Shown: in pieces, positions 1,300 through 51,018 of the stretch
Layout: every line of letters starts with the position of its first letter
Numbering within the stretch: position 1 is the stretch's first letter
From: Spiribacter sp. 1M189
GTDB taxonomy: Bacteria; Pseudomonadota; Gammaproteobacteria; Nitrococcales; Nitrococcaceae
DNA: 64,000 nt
Direction: 5' to 3'
NCBI RefSeq assembly: GCF_040838345.1
Contig: NZ_JBAKFF010000001.1
Coordinates: 1,736,001 to 1,800,000, forward strand
Position numbers and translations under genes: made by a program
The notes under the pieces: generated by a model
Seen by the model: only the letters and a program-made list of their open reading frames with translations
Told to the model about the DNA's origin: nothing
The model's database searches: none

Positions 1300-2172
1300 A
1301 TGTCCGGCGCAAAGGAAATCCGCACTCAGATAAAGAGTGTGAGCAACACGCAGAAGATCACCACGGCCATGGAGATGGTCGCGGCGTCGAAGATGCGTGG
1401 TGCCCAGCAGCGTATGCACGCTGCCCTGCCCTACGCCGAGAAGATGCGGCAGGTCATCGGCCATCTGGCCGAGGCGAACCCGGAATACCGGCATCCTTTC
1501 CTGGTCCGCCATGACGAAGTCAAGCGGATCGGGTACATCATTGTCTCCAGCGATCGGGGCCTCTGCGGTGGGCTGAACAACAATCTGTTCCGGGCCATCA
1601 TCAAGGAACTCCGTGATCACGAGAATGCCGGTCAGGAAGCGCGGCTCTGCACCGTCGGGTCCAAGGCCATACAGTTCTTCGGCCGCCTGTCCGCCCCCAT
1701 CATTGCCGAGGTGTCCCAGCTCGGTGACACGCCGCATCTGCAGGATCTTATCGGCACCCTCAAGGTGATGATGGATCAGTATGCGGACGGCGAGCTGGAC
1801 CGGGTGGTCATCTGCTACAACCGCTTCGTCAATACGATGACGCAGACCCCGACCATCGAGCAGATCCTGCCGCTGCCGCCCACCGAATCGGAAACGGTCC
1901 GGGACCGTGCCCACAGCTGGGACTATGTCTACGAACCGTCGGCCGCGCAGGCGCTGGATCTGCTGCTCGAGCGTTATATCGAGTCGCTGGTCTACCAGTC
2001 CGTGGTCGAGAACATCGCCTGTGAGCAGGCCGCACGCATGGTGGCGATGAAGGCCGCCTCTGATAACGCCGGCAAGCTGATCGACGACCTTAACCTGGCC
2101 TATAACAAGGCCCGTCAGGCGGCGATCACCACCGAGCTTTCGGAGATCGTGGCCGGCGCCGAGGCCGTCTAG
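1300..2172 (+). CDS. atpG: F-type ATP synthase subunit gamma
   Basis: This is the central rotor shaft of F1, 290 aa, close to the usual 287. The N-terminal helix that enters the alpha/beta hexamer starts [20 protein letters not shown], and the C-terminal helix ends [14 protein letters not shown]; both are family hallmarks. The start has an AGGTAGGA-type ribosome binding site just upstream. It lies between atpA and atpD in the F1 operon with short gaps (22 and 54 bases), so it is surely co-transcribed. Confidence 0.98.
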
Positions 2173-25693: not shown

Positions 25694-26424
25694 AGGTTGA
25701 GCAGGATCTCGCGCTCCTGCGGAGACGGTTCGAAATCCCGGTCGCGGTAGTGTGCGAAGATAGCATCGATCGCGGCCTGGGGTTCATCCAGCACCTGGAA
25801 CAGCGAGAGATCCTCCGGGTCGGCATTACCCGCCCCGACCATTGTTTTTTCCAGCCACTGCGCGAGCCCCTGCCAGTAATCCGTGCCCATCAGGATGACC
25901 GGAATACGCCGGGTCTTGCCGGTCTGCACCAGAGTGAGGATTTCGGCGAGCTCATCCAGCGTGCCGAAGCCGCCGGGAAAGACGACATAAGCCGAGGCAT
26001 ACTTCACGAACATCACCTTGCGGGCAAAGAAGTGCCGGAAGTTCAGCGCGATCTCCTGATACGCGTTCGGCGTCTGCTCCCGCGGCAGCTGGATGTTCAG
26101 CCCGATGCTGGCCGATGCACCCTCCCGAGCGCCCTTGTTGGCCGCCTCCATGATGCCCGGGCCGCCACCGCTGACGACGGAAAAGCCGGCATCGGAAAGC
26201 AGGCGCGCCGTGGCCTCAGCGCGCTGATAGTCAGGATCATCCGGCGCCTTGCGTGCCGAGCCGAAAATGCTCACCGACGGCCCCACCGGGGAGAGGCGCT
26301 CGAAGCCCTCCACGAACTCGGCCATGATCTGGAAAATTCGCCAGGACTCCCGCGTCATCAGTGTCGGATCGAGGCCGGCGGCGCCATTGTCCCGGCCCGA
26401 CCGCTGGCCATCGTGATGTGTCAT
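25690..26424 (-). CDS. LOG-family protein (TIGR00730-type)
   Basis: Rossmann-fold protein of 244 aa related to cytokinin riboside 5'-phosphate phosphoribohydrolases. The signature residues are SGGGPGIMEAAN and PGGFGTLDE. Bacterial members hydrolyse nucleoside 5'-monophosphates to base and ribose-5-P; the exact substrate here is unknown. It is convergent with uvrD (shared CTAG) and divergent from polA. Confidence 0.88.
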   Translation of the reverse strand: MTHHDGQRSGRDNGAAGLDPTLMTRESWRIFQIMAEFVEGFERLSPVGPSVSIFGSARKAPDDPDYQRAEATARLLSDAGFSVVSGGGPGIMEAANKGAREGASASIGLNIQLPREQTPNAYQEIALNFRHFFARKVMFVKYASAYVVFPGGFGTLDELAEILTLVQTGKTRRIPVILMGTDYWQGLAQWLEKTMVGAGNADPEDLSLFQVLDEPQAAIDAIFAHYRDRDFEPSPQEREILLNL

Positions 26425-26543
26425 GGTTGTCTCCCCCGGCCTGTGAATGCCGGCATTGTCGCATGGCCGTCGCCGCGGCCGTGCGCTGTCACTGCCACGA
26501 GCGCGGCGGTTATCATGGCGGGGTCGTCAGAAAGGAAGACCGC

Positions 26544-29276
26544 ATGACCGATCCCGACAAGCGCCTGCTGCTGGTGGATGGCTCGTCCTACCTGTATCGC
26601 GCCTACCACGCCCTGCCGCCGCTCACCAATCCGGCCGGTGAGCCCACCGGCGCCGTCTACGGGGTCATCAGCATGCTGCGCCGGCTCATGCAGGACTACC
26701 GGCCGGTGCATATGGGCGTGGTCTTTGATGCCCCCGGCAAGACCTTCCGGGACGAGCTGTTCCCCGAGTACAAGGCCAACCGACCGCCGATGCCGGACGA
26801 TCTCGCTACCCAGCTCGATCCACTGAAGGCGGTGGTTCGCGCCATGGGGCTGCCGCTCATCGAGGTAAGCGGGGTCGAGGCGGATGATGTGATCGGAACA
26901 CTCGCCGTGCGGGGGCGTCGCGATGGGCTGTCGCTGCTGATCTCCACCGGCGACAAGGACATGGCGCAGCTGGTCAATGGTGGCGTGACGCTGCTCAATA
27001 CCATGTCCAACACCGTGCTGGACCGTGACGGCGTGGTGGAGAAGTTCGGCGTGGCGCCGGAGTCCATCATCGACTACCTCGCCCTGGTGGGTGACACGTC
27101 GGACAACATCCCCGGCGTGCCCAAGGTGGGGCCGAAGACGGCGGCGAAATGGCTCAATCAGTACGGCTCCATTGACGGCATCCGTGAGCATGCGGATGCC
27201 ATCGGCGGCAAGGTCGGCGAGAGCCTCCGGGACCATCTCGAGGCGCTGGATCTCTCCCGCCAGCTCGCCACCATTCACTGCGACGTCGATCTGCCATTGG
27301 AACCGCTGGCGATCCGCCTCGATCAGCCGGACCGCGGCGAGCTCGCCCGGCTCTACCGACGGCTGGGCTTTAATACCTGGTTGCGGGAGATTGAGGCCGA
27401 CGGCGAGCGCAACGCTGACCCGGCGGCCGGAGAGGCCGTGGCGAGTCATGATCCGGCGGATCCACAGGCGGACTATGCCTGTCTGCAGGATGAGGCCGGC
27501 TTCGACGCCTGGCTGGAGCGGCTTGCCGCGGCCGAGCTCTTCGCCCTTGATCTCGAGACCGACAGCCTCGAGTACATGAACGCCGCCATCGTGGGCGTCT
27601 CGTTTGCCATTGAGCCCGGCGAGGCCGCCTATCTGCCACTGGCCCATACCGGCCCGGACCAGCCGGTGCAGCTTGACCGGGACGCGGCCCTGGAGCGACT
27701 GCGGCCGCTGCTGGAGGACCCCCAGGTCCGCAAGGTGGGCCAGAACCTGAAGTACGACATGAGCGTTCTGGCCAACCACGGCATCACGCTGCGCGGCGTG
27801 GTCCACGACACGATGTTGGAGTCGTATTGTCTCGATGCCACTGCATCGCGGCACGACATGGATTCGCTTGCGCAGAAGTACCTGAATTATCGGCCGATTG
27901 GCTATGAGCAGGTCGCCGGCAAGGGGGCGCGACAGATCACCTTCGATCAGGTCGCGCTGGATCAGGCCGTGGACTATGCCGCCGAGGACGCCGACATTAC
28001 TCTGCGGCTGCACGGTGAACTCTGGCCGGCGCTTGCCGAGCGACCGGGACCGAAGTCGATCTACGAAACCATCGAGATTCCGCTGCTGCCGGTGCTCTCG
28101 CGCATTGAGCGAACGGGCGTCCGGGTGGATGCCACGTTGCTCGGCGCTCAAAGCGGTGAGCTCGCCGAGACCATGCAGCGACTTGAGGCGCAGGCGCATG
28201 CCTGTGCCGGTGGGCCATTCAACCTCGGCTCGCCCAAGCAGATCCAGGAAATCCTCTACGAGCGCCAGGGTCTGCCGGTACTGGCCAAGACGCCGAAGGG
28301 CGCCCCGTCCACGGCGGAATCCGTCCTCGAGGAGCTGGCGGCCCAGGGGCATGAGCTGCCCCGCCTGATTCTCGACTACCGCGGCGTATCCAAGCTGCGC
28401 TCGACCTACACCGAGAAGTTGCCGACCCTGATCAACCCGCGCACGGGTCGGGTCCACACCTCCTATCACCAGGCGGTGGCCGCCACCGGGCGGCTGTCAT
28501 CGTCGGACCCGAATCTGCAGAACATCCCGGTGCGGACCCCCGAGGGCCGGCGTATCCGTCGCGCCTTTATTCCCGAGCCCGGCCATCGGCTCATGGCCGC
28601 CGACTACTCCCAGGTCGAGCTGCGCATCATGGCGCATCTGTCGGGAGATGATGGTCTGCGGCGGGCATTCGCCGAGGGGCTCGACATCCATGCGGCGACG
28701 GCGGCCGAGGTGTTCGGCAGCGCGGCGGACGCCGTCACCAATGACCAGCGACGGGCGGCCAAGGCCATCAACTTCGGCCTCATCTATGGCATGTCGGCCT
28801 GGGGGCTGGCCCGCCAGCTCGGCATCGAGCGCGGCGAGGCCCAGGCCTACGTCGATCGCTACTTCGACCGGTATCCCGGTGTGCGGGAATTCATGGATCG
28901 CACCCGCCAACTGGCCCATGAACAGGGCTACGTGGAAACGGTTTTCGGACGCCGGCTGTATCTGCCCGAAATCAACAGTCGCAACAACCAGCGGCGACAG
29001 TATGCCGAGCGGACGGCCATCAACGCGCCCATGCAGGGAACGGCTGCCGATATCATCAAGCGGGCCATGATCGCCGTGGACGGCTGGATTGCGGCCGAAC
29101 ATCCCGACGTCGCGCTCGTCATGCAGGTGCACGACGAGCTGGTGCTGGAGGTGCCCACAGGTGACGAGGACCGGGTTGCCGAGCGTATCCGCGGTTTCAT
29201 GGAGGCGGCCGCGGAGCTGGACGTGCCACTGGAGGTGGAAATCGGTGTGGGGGAAAACTGGGAGAGCGCGCACTGA
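26544..29276 (+). CDS. polA: DNA polymerase I
   Basis: Repair and Okazaki-fragment polymerase, 910 aa. The start at 26544 follows AAAGGA; upstream in-frame codons overlap the neighbour. There is a 5' nuclease domain (about 1-290). The 3'-5' exonuclease is intact, with ExoI ALDLETDSL, ExoII NLKYDMS and ExoIII YAAEDADIT. Polymerase motif A is DYSQVELRI, motif B is RRAAKAINFGLIYG and motif C is QVHDELVLE. Downstream are a candidate small RNA and engB, the same order as in E. coli and Pseudomonas. Confidence 0.97.
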   Translation: MTDPDKRLLLVDGSSYLYRAYHALPPLTNPAGEPTGAVYGVISMLRRLMQDYRPVHMGVVFDAPGKTFRDELFPEYKANRPPMPDDLATQLDPLKAVVRAMGLPLIEVSGVEADDVIGTLAVRGRRDGLSLLISTGDKDMAQLVNGGVTLLNTMSNTVLDRDGVVEKFGVAPESIIDYLALVGDTSDNIPGVPKVGPKTAAKWLNQYGSIDGIREHADAIGGKVGESLRDHLEALDLSRQLATIHCDVDLPLEPLAIRLDQPDRGELARLYRRLGFNTWLREIEADGERNADPAAGEAVASHDPADPQADYACLQDEAGFDAWLERLAAAELFALDLETDSLEYMNAAIVGVSFAIEPGEAAYLPLAHTGPDQPVQLDRDAALERLRPLLEDPQVRKVGQNLKYDMSVLANHGITLRGVVHDTMLESYCLDATASRHDMDSLAQKYLNYRPIGYEQVAGKGARQITFDQVALDQAVDYAAEDADITLRLHGELWPALAERPGPKSIYETIEIPLLPVLSRIERTGVRVDATLLGAQSGELAETMQRLEAQAHACAGGPFNLGSPKQIQEILYERQGLPVLAKTPKGAPSTAESVLEELAAQGHELPRLILDYRGVSKLRSTYTEKLPTLINPRTGRVHTSYHQAVAATGRLSSSDPNLQNIPVRTPEGRRIRRAFIPEPGHRLMAADYSQVELRIMAHLSGDDGLRRAFAEGLDIHAATAAEVFGSAADAVTNDQRRAAKAINFGLIYGMSAWGLARQLGIERGEAQAYVDRYFDRYPGVREFMDRTRQLAHEQGYVETVFGRRLYLPEINSRNNQRRQYAERTAINAPMQGTAADIIKRAMIAVDGWIAAEHPDVALVMQVHDELVLEVPTGDEDRVAERIRGFMEAAAELDVPLEVEIGVGENWESAH

Positions 29277-29301
29277 ACTTCCCCCATGGTGCACTGTCCC
29301 A
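29275..29301 (+). promoter_or_regulatory. Candidate sigma-E/AlgU-type promoter
   Basis: GAACTT at 29275-29280 is a perfect match to the -35 of sigma-E/AlgU promoters. After a 16-base spacer, TCCCA at 29297-29301 agrees with the TCNNA positions of the -10. It begins inside the polA stop codon and would start transcription near 29308, just ahead of the hairpin cluster. Confidence 0.4.
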
Positions 29302-29307
29302 TCAGGT

Positions 29308-29431
29308 GCGCCAGTGCCCGGCGCGGCCCGCTACTCCCTCCCTTACTAGCGGGCCAGCGAGGCCCGGCCGAGCCCCCAAGGCCGGGTCCACTGTCCCCGG
29401 AGACCACACCCCATGGGCTCCGGGGTTTTTT
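29308..29431 (+). ncRNA. Candidate small RNA between polA and engB (ErsA/Spot 42 position)
   Basis: This non-coding gap holds three perfect hairpins: arms 29325-29333/29347-29355 (9 bp), 29363-29369/29380-29386 (7 bp), and the terminator 29395-29402/29418-29425 (8 bp). The first loop is the C/U-rich CTCCCTCCCTTAC, able to pair with ribosome binding sites. The predicted length is about 124 nt. The same gap carries Spot 42 in enterics and the AlgU-dependent ErsA in Pseudomonas. Sequence homology to these is not claimed; the call rests on position, promoter and structure. Confidence 0.5.
29395..29431 (+). terminator. Rho-independent terminator
   Basis: The stem CCCCGGAG / CTCCGGGG with a 15-base loop is followed directly by TTTTTT. 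It ends polA and/or the small RNA transcript. The T-run overlaps the stop codon of the convergent engB gene. Confidence 0.9.
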
Positions 29432-30035
29432 ATGTCTGTAACCACTCGTCAAGCTGAGCCCGGGCCGCCTCCACGCCATCCCGGGTCTGCGCGGAGAAGA
29501 GCTGGGCGCTGGCTTCCGGGCACATGCGCGCCGCTGCTGATCGAACGGATTGCAGTGTATTGCCGGCCGGACCGCGACGCAGCTTGTCCGCCTTGCTCAA
29601 CAGGATGTGCACCGGCAGCCCGGCGGCCTCGCACCACAGCAGCATCTGCTCGTCGAGCGGGCCAAGGGGGTGGCGCACATCCGTGATCAGGACCAGCCCG
29701 CGTAGGCTCTGACGGGTTTCGAGGTACTGTGGCAGCGCTTTCTGCCAGTGAGCCCGTAGCGCCGGCGGAGCCTTCGCATAGCCATAGCCCGGCAGGTCGA
29801 TCAGGCGCCGGGCGCTGTCCGGCGCGCCGATCGGGAAGACATTGATCTGCTGTGTCCGCCCCGGGGTCTTGCTGACCCGCGCCAGCTGTTTCTGATCGGT
29901 AATGGCGTTGAGCGCGCTGGATTTACCGGCGTTCGAGCGACCGGCGAATGCCACCTCTTCACCGGCATCGGCGGGGAGCTGGGCCGGGTCAGCGGCTGAG
30001 AGAAGAAACTGAGCCTGACGGTAGTCAATTGACAC
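29430..30035 (-). CDS. engB: Ribosome biogenesis GTP-binding protein EngB/YsxC
   Basis: Essential TRAFAC-class GTPase for large-subunit assembly, 201 aa. G1 is GRSNAGKS (32-39), G3 is DLPGYGYA and G4 is LLSKADKL. Start is GTG at 30035 with GAGG upstream. Convergent with polA, divergent from cytochrome c4, as in many gammaproteobacteria. Confidence 0.95.
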   Translation of the reverse strand: MSIDYRQAQFLLSAADPAQLPADAGEEVAFAGRSNAGKSSALNAITDQKQLARVSKTPGRTQQINVFPIGAPDSARRLIDLPGYGYAKAPPALRAHWQKALPQYLETRQSLRGLVLITDVRHPLGPLDEQMLLWCEAAGLPVHILLSKADKLRRGPAGNTLQSVRSAAARMCPEASAQLFSAQTRDGVEAARAQLDEWLQT

Positions 30036-50821: not shown

Positions 50822-51018
50822 GTGAACGGGTCCCCGTGACGTCGTTCGGGCACGCCCTTGAACCCTTTGGTTCAGGTCGGGGAGGGCGAATGACCCCTTA
50901 GGCTTTCCGCTCGTGGCGGACCTGCACACCGGTGTCATTACCAGCGTCTCCCCTAAGGCGCATGATTGTAGGGTCAAGAATGCTAAAACCCGTTATCGAG
51001 CGCCACAGGGACCCGAGA
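50822..51018 (-). ncRNA. ssrS: 6S RNA
   Basis: RNA that binds the sigma-70 RNA polymerase by mimicking an open promoter. The segment CTGAACCAAAGGGTTCAAGG matches the E. coli hairpin (TTGAACCAAGGGTTCAAGG), and GAAAGCCTAAG matches GAGAAGCCTTAA. The closing stem is visible as arms at 51001-51015 and 50827-50841 (15 bp with two G-U pairs). It is located between zapA and ygfA, as in other gammaproteobacteria. The ends are approximate; the length is close to 200 nt. Confidence 0.88.

Follow-up and report, generated by a model that had tools for sequence, protein, structure and literature searches.

The 153-base gap between the convergent genes polA and engB of the salt-loving bacterium Spiribacter sp. 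1M189 very probably encodes a small regulatory RNA, which, judging from sequence comparison, would be under the control of the envelope-stress sigma factor. The gap lies in a 64,000-nucleotide stretch of the 1.95-megabase genome (contig NZ_JBAKFF010000001.1, positions 1,736,001 to 1,800,000 of the forward strand), hereafter referred to as the window, whose numbering is used throughout. Taking the explanation as a whole, I consider it quite probable that the product is an RpoE-transcribed repressor RNA, acting in trans through C-rich loops and belonging to one family with sX13, anti-hemB and ErsA. Genome comparison establishes the predicted gene, its structure, the conservation of its promoter, the family link and the changes of orientation. 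The unit comprises the following features:

29275–29280, plus strand: −35 element GAACTT of a sigma-E-type promoter, kept in relatives
29297–29301, plus strand: −10 element TCCCA (TCNNA) after a 16-base spacer; relatives mostly have GTCATA or GTCTNA
29306–29431, plus strand: predicted small RNA of about 126 nucleotides, predicted start 29306–29308, matched over its full length in its own genome by the models R1 and R2
29308–29324, plus strand: hairpin 1, 5 base pairs, GCGCC-AGUGCCC-GGCGC, near-invariant in families f1 and f2
29325–29355, plus strand: hairpin 2, 9 base pairs, with the 13-base loop CUCCCUCCCUUAC (29334–29346), probable pairing loop A
29361–29388, plus strand: hairpin 3, 9-base-pair core, with the loop GAGCCCCCAA (29370–29379), probable pairing loop B
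29395–29431, plus strand: conserved intrinsic terminator, hairpin 29395–29425 with a C-rich loop (CCCC at 29409–29412), followed by U6

The −35 element starts inside the TGA stop codon of polA (29274–29276), and at the other end the U-tract of the terminator runs into the engB stop codon (29430–29432; overlap region 29426–29432). A sequence-only reading of this DNA had proposed a small RNA with a sigma-E-type promoter in the gap. Its promoter beginning inside the polA stop, its three hairpins, its 13-base loop and its terminator are all recovered here, and fold, promoter sequence and conservation agree with it; the length differs slightly, about 124 nucleotides then and 126 in the present prediction.

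Conservation and fold of the RNA

The RNA is present in all 14 Spiribacter genomes searched. In each Spiribacter gap that was read the 5′ hairpin is nearly invariant, and the stems vary while the C-rich loops stay. Alignment A1, made of 20 family-f1 loci (L063 and L079 are not included), has standard pairs in 97.5% of pair cells and a change on both sides in 13 of 32 pairs; its covariation score of 0.315 (0.194 after shuffling) was reached by none of 500 shuffles. In alignment A5, whose 111 distinct sequences lie outside the training set of model R2 but were selected and aligned by it, the corresponding figures are 31 of 32 pairs and a score of 0.615 against 0.176. The conservation of GAACTT and of the hairpins among relatives, with compensatory changes, is what the sequence-only reading had led one to expect; this comparison of gaps omitted seven duplicate loci (L031–L036 and L038) and loci with no polA match.

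Two covariance models were used for the searches, neither of which takes the polA/engB neighbourhood into account. R1 was built from Spiribacter and its family only, while R2 is a second round, retrained on 65 sequences that include R1-found loci and the RNA of the window; its training alignment (A4) was made from 60 of 84 loci with an expectation value (E) of at most 5e-5. In the own genome R2 gives a single match, at 115 bits, and the full-length matches of both models convert to 29306–29432. At the level of the order, R1 finds the RNA in 46 of 54 genomes and R2 in 50 of 54; a second match at L041 (19.6 bits) was treated as noise. Extra R2 matches, possibly paralogues, were seen in four places on contig C14 of genome G035, a contig other than that with its polA–engB copy, and on contigs C33 and C15 of G030. 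One binned genome, G003, carries two diverged loci of engB and the small RNA (L003 and L037), and is probably a mixed bin.

The segment 29305–29434 has a predicted folding energy of −67.8 kcal/mol (z = −3.66), and none of 200 shuffled sequences is as stable. In the computed structural ensemble the RNA is rigid, its accessible stretches being mainly the C-rich loops and the tail, with the C-tracts of the loops 95–100% unpaired. Across 112 sequences, CCC occurs in 99 of the hairpin-2 loops, 98 of the hairpin-3 loops and 81 of the terminator loops; elsewhere it occurs in 14 and 2 sequences for the two linkers, and in 49 and 44 for the 5′ stem arms. The longer CCCC is found in 92 hairpin-3 loops, as compared with 23 after shuffling within the loop.

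The two neighbouring genes were taken from the list of open reading frames, and translated searches find the same neighbours in relatives:

26361–29276, plus strand: polA (DNA polymerase I), upstream neighbour, start assigned mechanically
29430–30035, minus strand: engB (yihA/ysxC GTPase), convergent neighbour

Matches to engB with E of at most 0.001 were obtained in 58 of 59 genomes, the own genome included, at least five of them weak and probably due to other GTPases. Elsewhere in the window, 6S RNA (RF00013, 73.4 bits) at 50827–51014 on the minus strand is the only Rfam match above its cut-off.

Distribution across the class and family links

Searched as a single sequence against Rfam, the RNA resembles several known families below their gathering cut-offs: sX13 (RF02232) is best at 36.1 bits (cut-off 50), followed by anti-hemB (RF02837) at 28.2 bits (cut-off 49.5) and ErsA (RF01719) at 26.9 or 25.2 bits (cut-off 50). 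The actinobacterial RNAs 6C (27.8 bits) and Scr3202 (25.8 bits) come close in bits, but not in E (0.04–0.05).

The models provide a more sensitive view. In 274 genomes sampled across the class, R1 finds 39 with the RNA, and its hits include one Rfam sX13 locus (103 bits) and three Rfam anti-hemB loci; at the other 24 of the 28 loci L090–L117, no Rfam family reaches its cut-off over the RNA. R2, with at most 12 candidates scored per genome, finds 130 of the 274. Since the training set of R2 contained that one sX13 locus and the three anti-hemB loci, only R1 is an independent test for these two families. ErsA loci are absent from both training sets, and eight R2 matches of the phylum-wide sample, all in family f164, are Rfam ErsA genes at 107–139 bits. 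In f164 genome G214 the ErsA gene, with the search filters off, scores 24.9 bits and is the top place in its stretch. Conversely, when the Rfam ErsA model is run on the class sample it gives nine matches below threshold, and eight of these coincide with R2 matches. The earlier suggestion that the RNA is ErsA-like therefore stands in that the covariance models link the two, while the nearest Rfam family is sX13, and all of these single-sequence scores lie below cut-off.

Gene context was counted separately. Outside the order 127 class genomes have a match, and the count takes in 127 loci from 125 of them; 103 of these loci hold polA or engB, and L127 and L128, which the count omits, hold both. 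The RNA lies on the polA strand in 69 of the 74 class loci where polA is seen. Two loci from genomes of one family, L098 (956–1396) and L110 (1010–1443), have a borderline match to the cspA thermoregulator (RF01766, 79–80 bits, cut-off 78) just upstream of the RNA. Three R2 matches outside the class (L245, L249 and L254) have no polA or engB by tblastn, and only 5–6 of 9 key promoter bases; the first of these (1501–1629, minus strand, 49.8 bits) has an ar35 match in the same locus, and could be an alphaproteobacterial relative or a case of convergence.

It could be argued that the likeness to sX13, anti-hemB and ErsA is convergent, and that any GC-rich C-loop RNA with a terminator at this place would score. 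The weak matches of 6C and Scr3202 to the window are in its favour, as are the low scores of the ErsA loci, which reach only 24.9–39 bits under R2 with filters off and are weak taken one by one. However, the filters-off background did not exceed 11.6 bits in one search, and in another reached 16 bits on the opposite strand of one RNA and 12 elsewhere. Spot 42 provides a further comparison. It occupies the same place in Escherichia coli, as the sequence-only reading had pointed out, but R2 gives its spf locus 11.6 bits (E 0.21), and an Rfam search of the Spiribacter gap returned no Spot 42 match at E of up to 10; kinship with Spot 42 was rejected on these scores. Place, strand and promoter are moreover shared outside anything the model contains. 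I consider convergence unlikely, although of the alternatives it keeps the most ground.

On this comparison, the Spiribacter RNA seems to share one widespread family with sX13, anti-hemB and, with less certainty, ErsA, each forming a branch of it. I lean, with some reserve, towards descent of all four from a single ancestral sigma-E-dependent C-loop RNA that came to lie beside polA at an early stage of the Gammaproteobacteria, a class taken to include the former Betaproteobacteria. The envelope-stress response would then have a long-established non-coding arm, found in roughly half of the class sample (130/274) under three unrelated names or none, and repeatedly duplicated in tandem and flipped together with its promoter. 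A literature search, with most subscription journals outside its reach, found no paper linking these RNAs: none mentions sX13 together with ErsA, or any two of sX13, anti-hemB, Pseudomon-1 and Burkholderia RNA 7. On links between small RNAs of the polA locus it returned only the remark on Spot 42 and alpha-r7 in the sX13 paper (PMC3771888; this and the other papers are cited for the portions of their text that were available). In such portions anti-hemB is merely tabulated in two Burkholderia papers (PMC5688073, PMC3521395), and the Spiribacter RNA motif mentioned in PMC8632094 is the proX motif, located before another gene. The Spiribacter RNA, very probably a small-RNA gene, is new to the polA-locus C-loop RNAs.

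The promoter and the orientation of the unit

GAACTT-N16-TCCCA (29275–29301) is the sole such match in the 64 kilobases of the window. Its pattern is expected 0.40 times there by chance, so that by itself the motif says little, and the argument rests on its conservation. Of 15 Spiribacter loci, all but one match the key bases at 8 or 9 of the nine positions, the exception at 7; up to the TC the spacer measures 16 bases in the window and in the two relatives closest to it, and mostly 17 in the remaining loci. In 10 of 14 Spiribacter loci the polA stop is where TGAACTT or TGAACTC begins, a feature that L063 appears to share. One of the promoter hit lists covers 83 of 84 loci, leaving out an incomplete match (L040).

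Outside the order, 155 of 157 rows could be scored (tandem copies and 13 phylum-level rows are included, and two rows fall short of upstream sequence). Of these 155 copies, 118 carry 8 or all 9 of the key bases; among 3100 control windows taken from the same loci, the proportion is 1.0%. A 16-base spacer is seen in 93 of these 118 copies, and in 95 the −10 element stops 4–8 nucleotides short of the model start, as it should if transcription begins at the 5′ end of the RNA. The own genome encodes RpoE (310 bits, cut-off 236), and 11 of the 14 rpoE genes of Spiribacter have TGAACTT-N16-GTC upstream, in line with autoregulation of rpoE. A search of the own genome with GGAACTTN{15,17}TCNNA matched 2 sites on the forward strand and none on the reverse; as the reversed-pattern control matched 3 on each, the search is uninformative regarding a regulon. 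Promoter consensus and conservation agree, and support a sigma-E-driven small RNA.

An alternative is that the RNA is separate but not sigma-E-driven, with GAACTT incidental or recognized by another extracytoplasmic function sigma factor, and with constitutive expression like that of the abundant sX13. The chance expectation given above leaves room for this, and a good motif is missing at all four sX13 loci (6, 6, 6 and 7 of 9 key bases; 56% of control windows reach 6 and 10% reach 7). Against it stand the excess over controls, the identical motif before the rpoE genes, and the ErsA-type loci, where the motif is present in nine out of nine (8 or 9 of 9 bases, spacer 17); ErsA itself is described as AlgU-dependent, with a promoter recognized by sigma-22 (PMC5819304, PMC7565897). 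At least 8 of the 9 bases are also found at three of five anti-hemB loci. I regard this alternative as slightly less probable than convergence, and hold to control by sigma-E.

The unit is not fixed in direction. In the sister family f2, RNA and promoter lie on the opposite strand of the same gap in all 12 loci where polA is seen, family f5 is flipped in both loci with polA in view, and in the class sample L099, L147, L167, L169 and L173 are flipped, all with 8 or 9 of 9 promoter bases. This indicates that the promoter travels with the RNA, and that in the flipped species, where the RNA reads against polA, it is not a product of the polA 3′ untranslated region. Tandem arrays of two to five copies are found in 11 of the 127 class loci. 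Examples are L215 (2001–2739), with five copies, L090 (1501–2251), with four, and L175 (1848–2301), with three, the third of which is weak (22.4 bits).

The idea that the gap is just a strong terminator region, at which transcription of polA (and engB) ends, and yields no RNA of its own draws on the convergence of the genes and on a 3′ end with a terminator-like hairpin and U6 overlapping the engB stop. It becomes highly improbable given the conserved promoter at a nearly fixed distance before the first hairpin, the loops conserved while the stems covary, the flips relative to polA and the tandem copies. Least probable of all is a small protein encoded in the gap, as SpfP is by Spot 42 (spfP is annotated inside spf): a GTG-initiated frame does run through the RNA, but 5 of the 20 A1 sequences lack its start codon and another 3 have an early stop in the frame, the remaining ones staying open through the terminator, and this reading was rejected for want of a conserved start and frame.

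Proposed mechanism and known systems

In the favoured explanation, envelope stress would lead RNA polymerase with RpoE (sigma-E/AlgU) to transcribe the trans-acting RNA from the polA–engB gap. Its rigid hairpins would expose C-rich loops, and these would pair with G-rich, Shine-Dalgarno-like stretches near start codons and thereby repress translation. The RNA would then serve the sigma-E response as its non-coding, repressing arm, in one family with sX13 of Xanthomonas, anti-hemB of Burkholderia and, more distantly, ErsA of Pseudomonas. The C-rich loops of sX13 are reported to act, independently of Hfq, as repressors of mRNAs that carry G-rich motifs close to the start codon (PMC3771888), and purine tracts resembling Shine-Dalgarno sequences are complementary to the Spiribacter loop CUCCCUCCCUU. 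From this precedent, this complementarity and the accessibility of the loops, I infer that the RNA is a sigma-E-induced translational repressor; its expression, its dependence on sigma-E in vivo, the pairing of its loops with ribosome-binding sites and its targets are part of the same inference. The own genome encodes Hfq, and by analogy with sX13 I would guess that the RNA does not depend on it.

Several observations weigh against this picture, in addition to the sX13 promoters and ErsA scores already described. A simple consensus scanner called neither an intrinsic terminator nor a sigma-70 promoter at the gap; it may miss the terminator, whose stem has one unpaired position on each side. 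CCCC is not enriched in the hairpin-2 loops (22, as compared with 35 after shuffling), where CCC is retained with U between. The own hfq gene has GGGG at +9 to +12, the same place as reported for the sX13-controlled hfq of Xanthomonas (PMC3771888), but this may reflect only protein constraint on lysine-glycine codons. Regarding the reach of the family, 144 of the 274 class genomes have no R2 match among the candidates scored. In the phylum-wide sample R2 finds only 23 of 299 genomes, unmatched ones occurring also within the same class, and at least two f164 genomes (G214 and G373) lack an R2 match at E of at most 0.001. Finally, both polA and engB are missing from 24 of the 127 class loci, some of which lie on short contigs.

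If the family is real, three RNAs studied separately in Pseudomonas, Xanthomonas and Burkholderia become one, with a common promoter logic, and targets or mechanism established for one of sX13, anti-hemB and ErsA can be tested in the others. The Spiribacter RNA has the features that define the R2 family, namely the four-hairpin model, the polA/engB neighbourhood and the sigma-E-type promoter, and its likeness to the named RNAs is uneven. Spot 42 (spf) of E. coli shares the genomic place, in the order polA-spf-yihA(engB), but differs in its described Hfq dependence and carbon-metabolism targets (PMC3771888). ErsA/Pseudomon-1, whose targets include algC, oprD and amrZ (PMC5819304), has polA and engB on both sides in all eight R2-found loci, a sigma-E/AlgU-type promoter and a terminator with a C-rich loop. 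However, its spacer is 17 rather than the 16 of the window, its G+C content is 0.51–0.56 rather than 0.72, its R2 scores are weak, and its nucleotides 26–56 are described as unstructured (PMC5819304). The hairpins 2 and 3 and the terminator can be aligned to anti-hemB/Burkholderia RNA 7, which R1 finds genome-wide, although the Rfam model, with 81 positions, is the shorter one and begins at hairpin 2. sX13 is reported to be exclusive to Xanthomonadaceae, in the available text of PMC3771888, and its loci lack the good sigma-E motif that the Spiribacter locus has, but it also lies downstream of polA, aligns with the RNA of the window over its full length (1–115), and has three stems with C-rich apical loops, as does the Spiribacter RNA.

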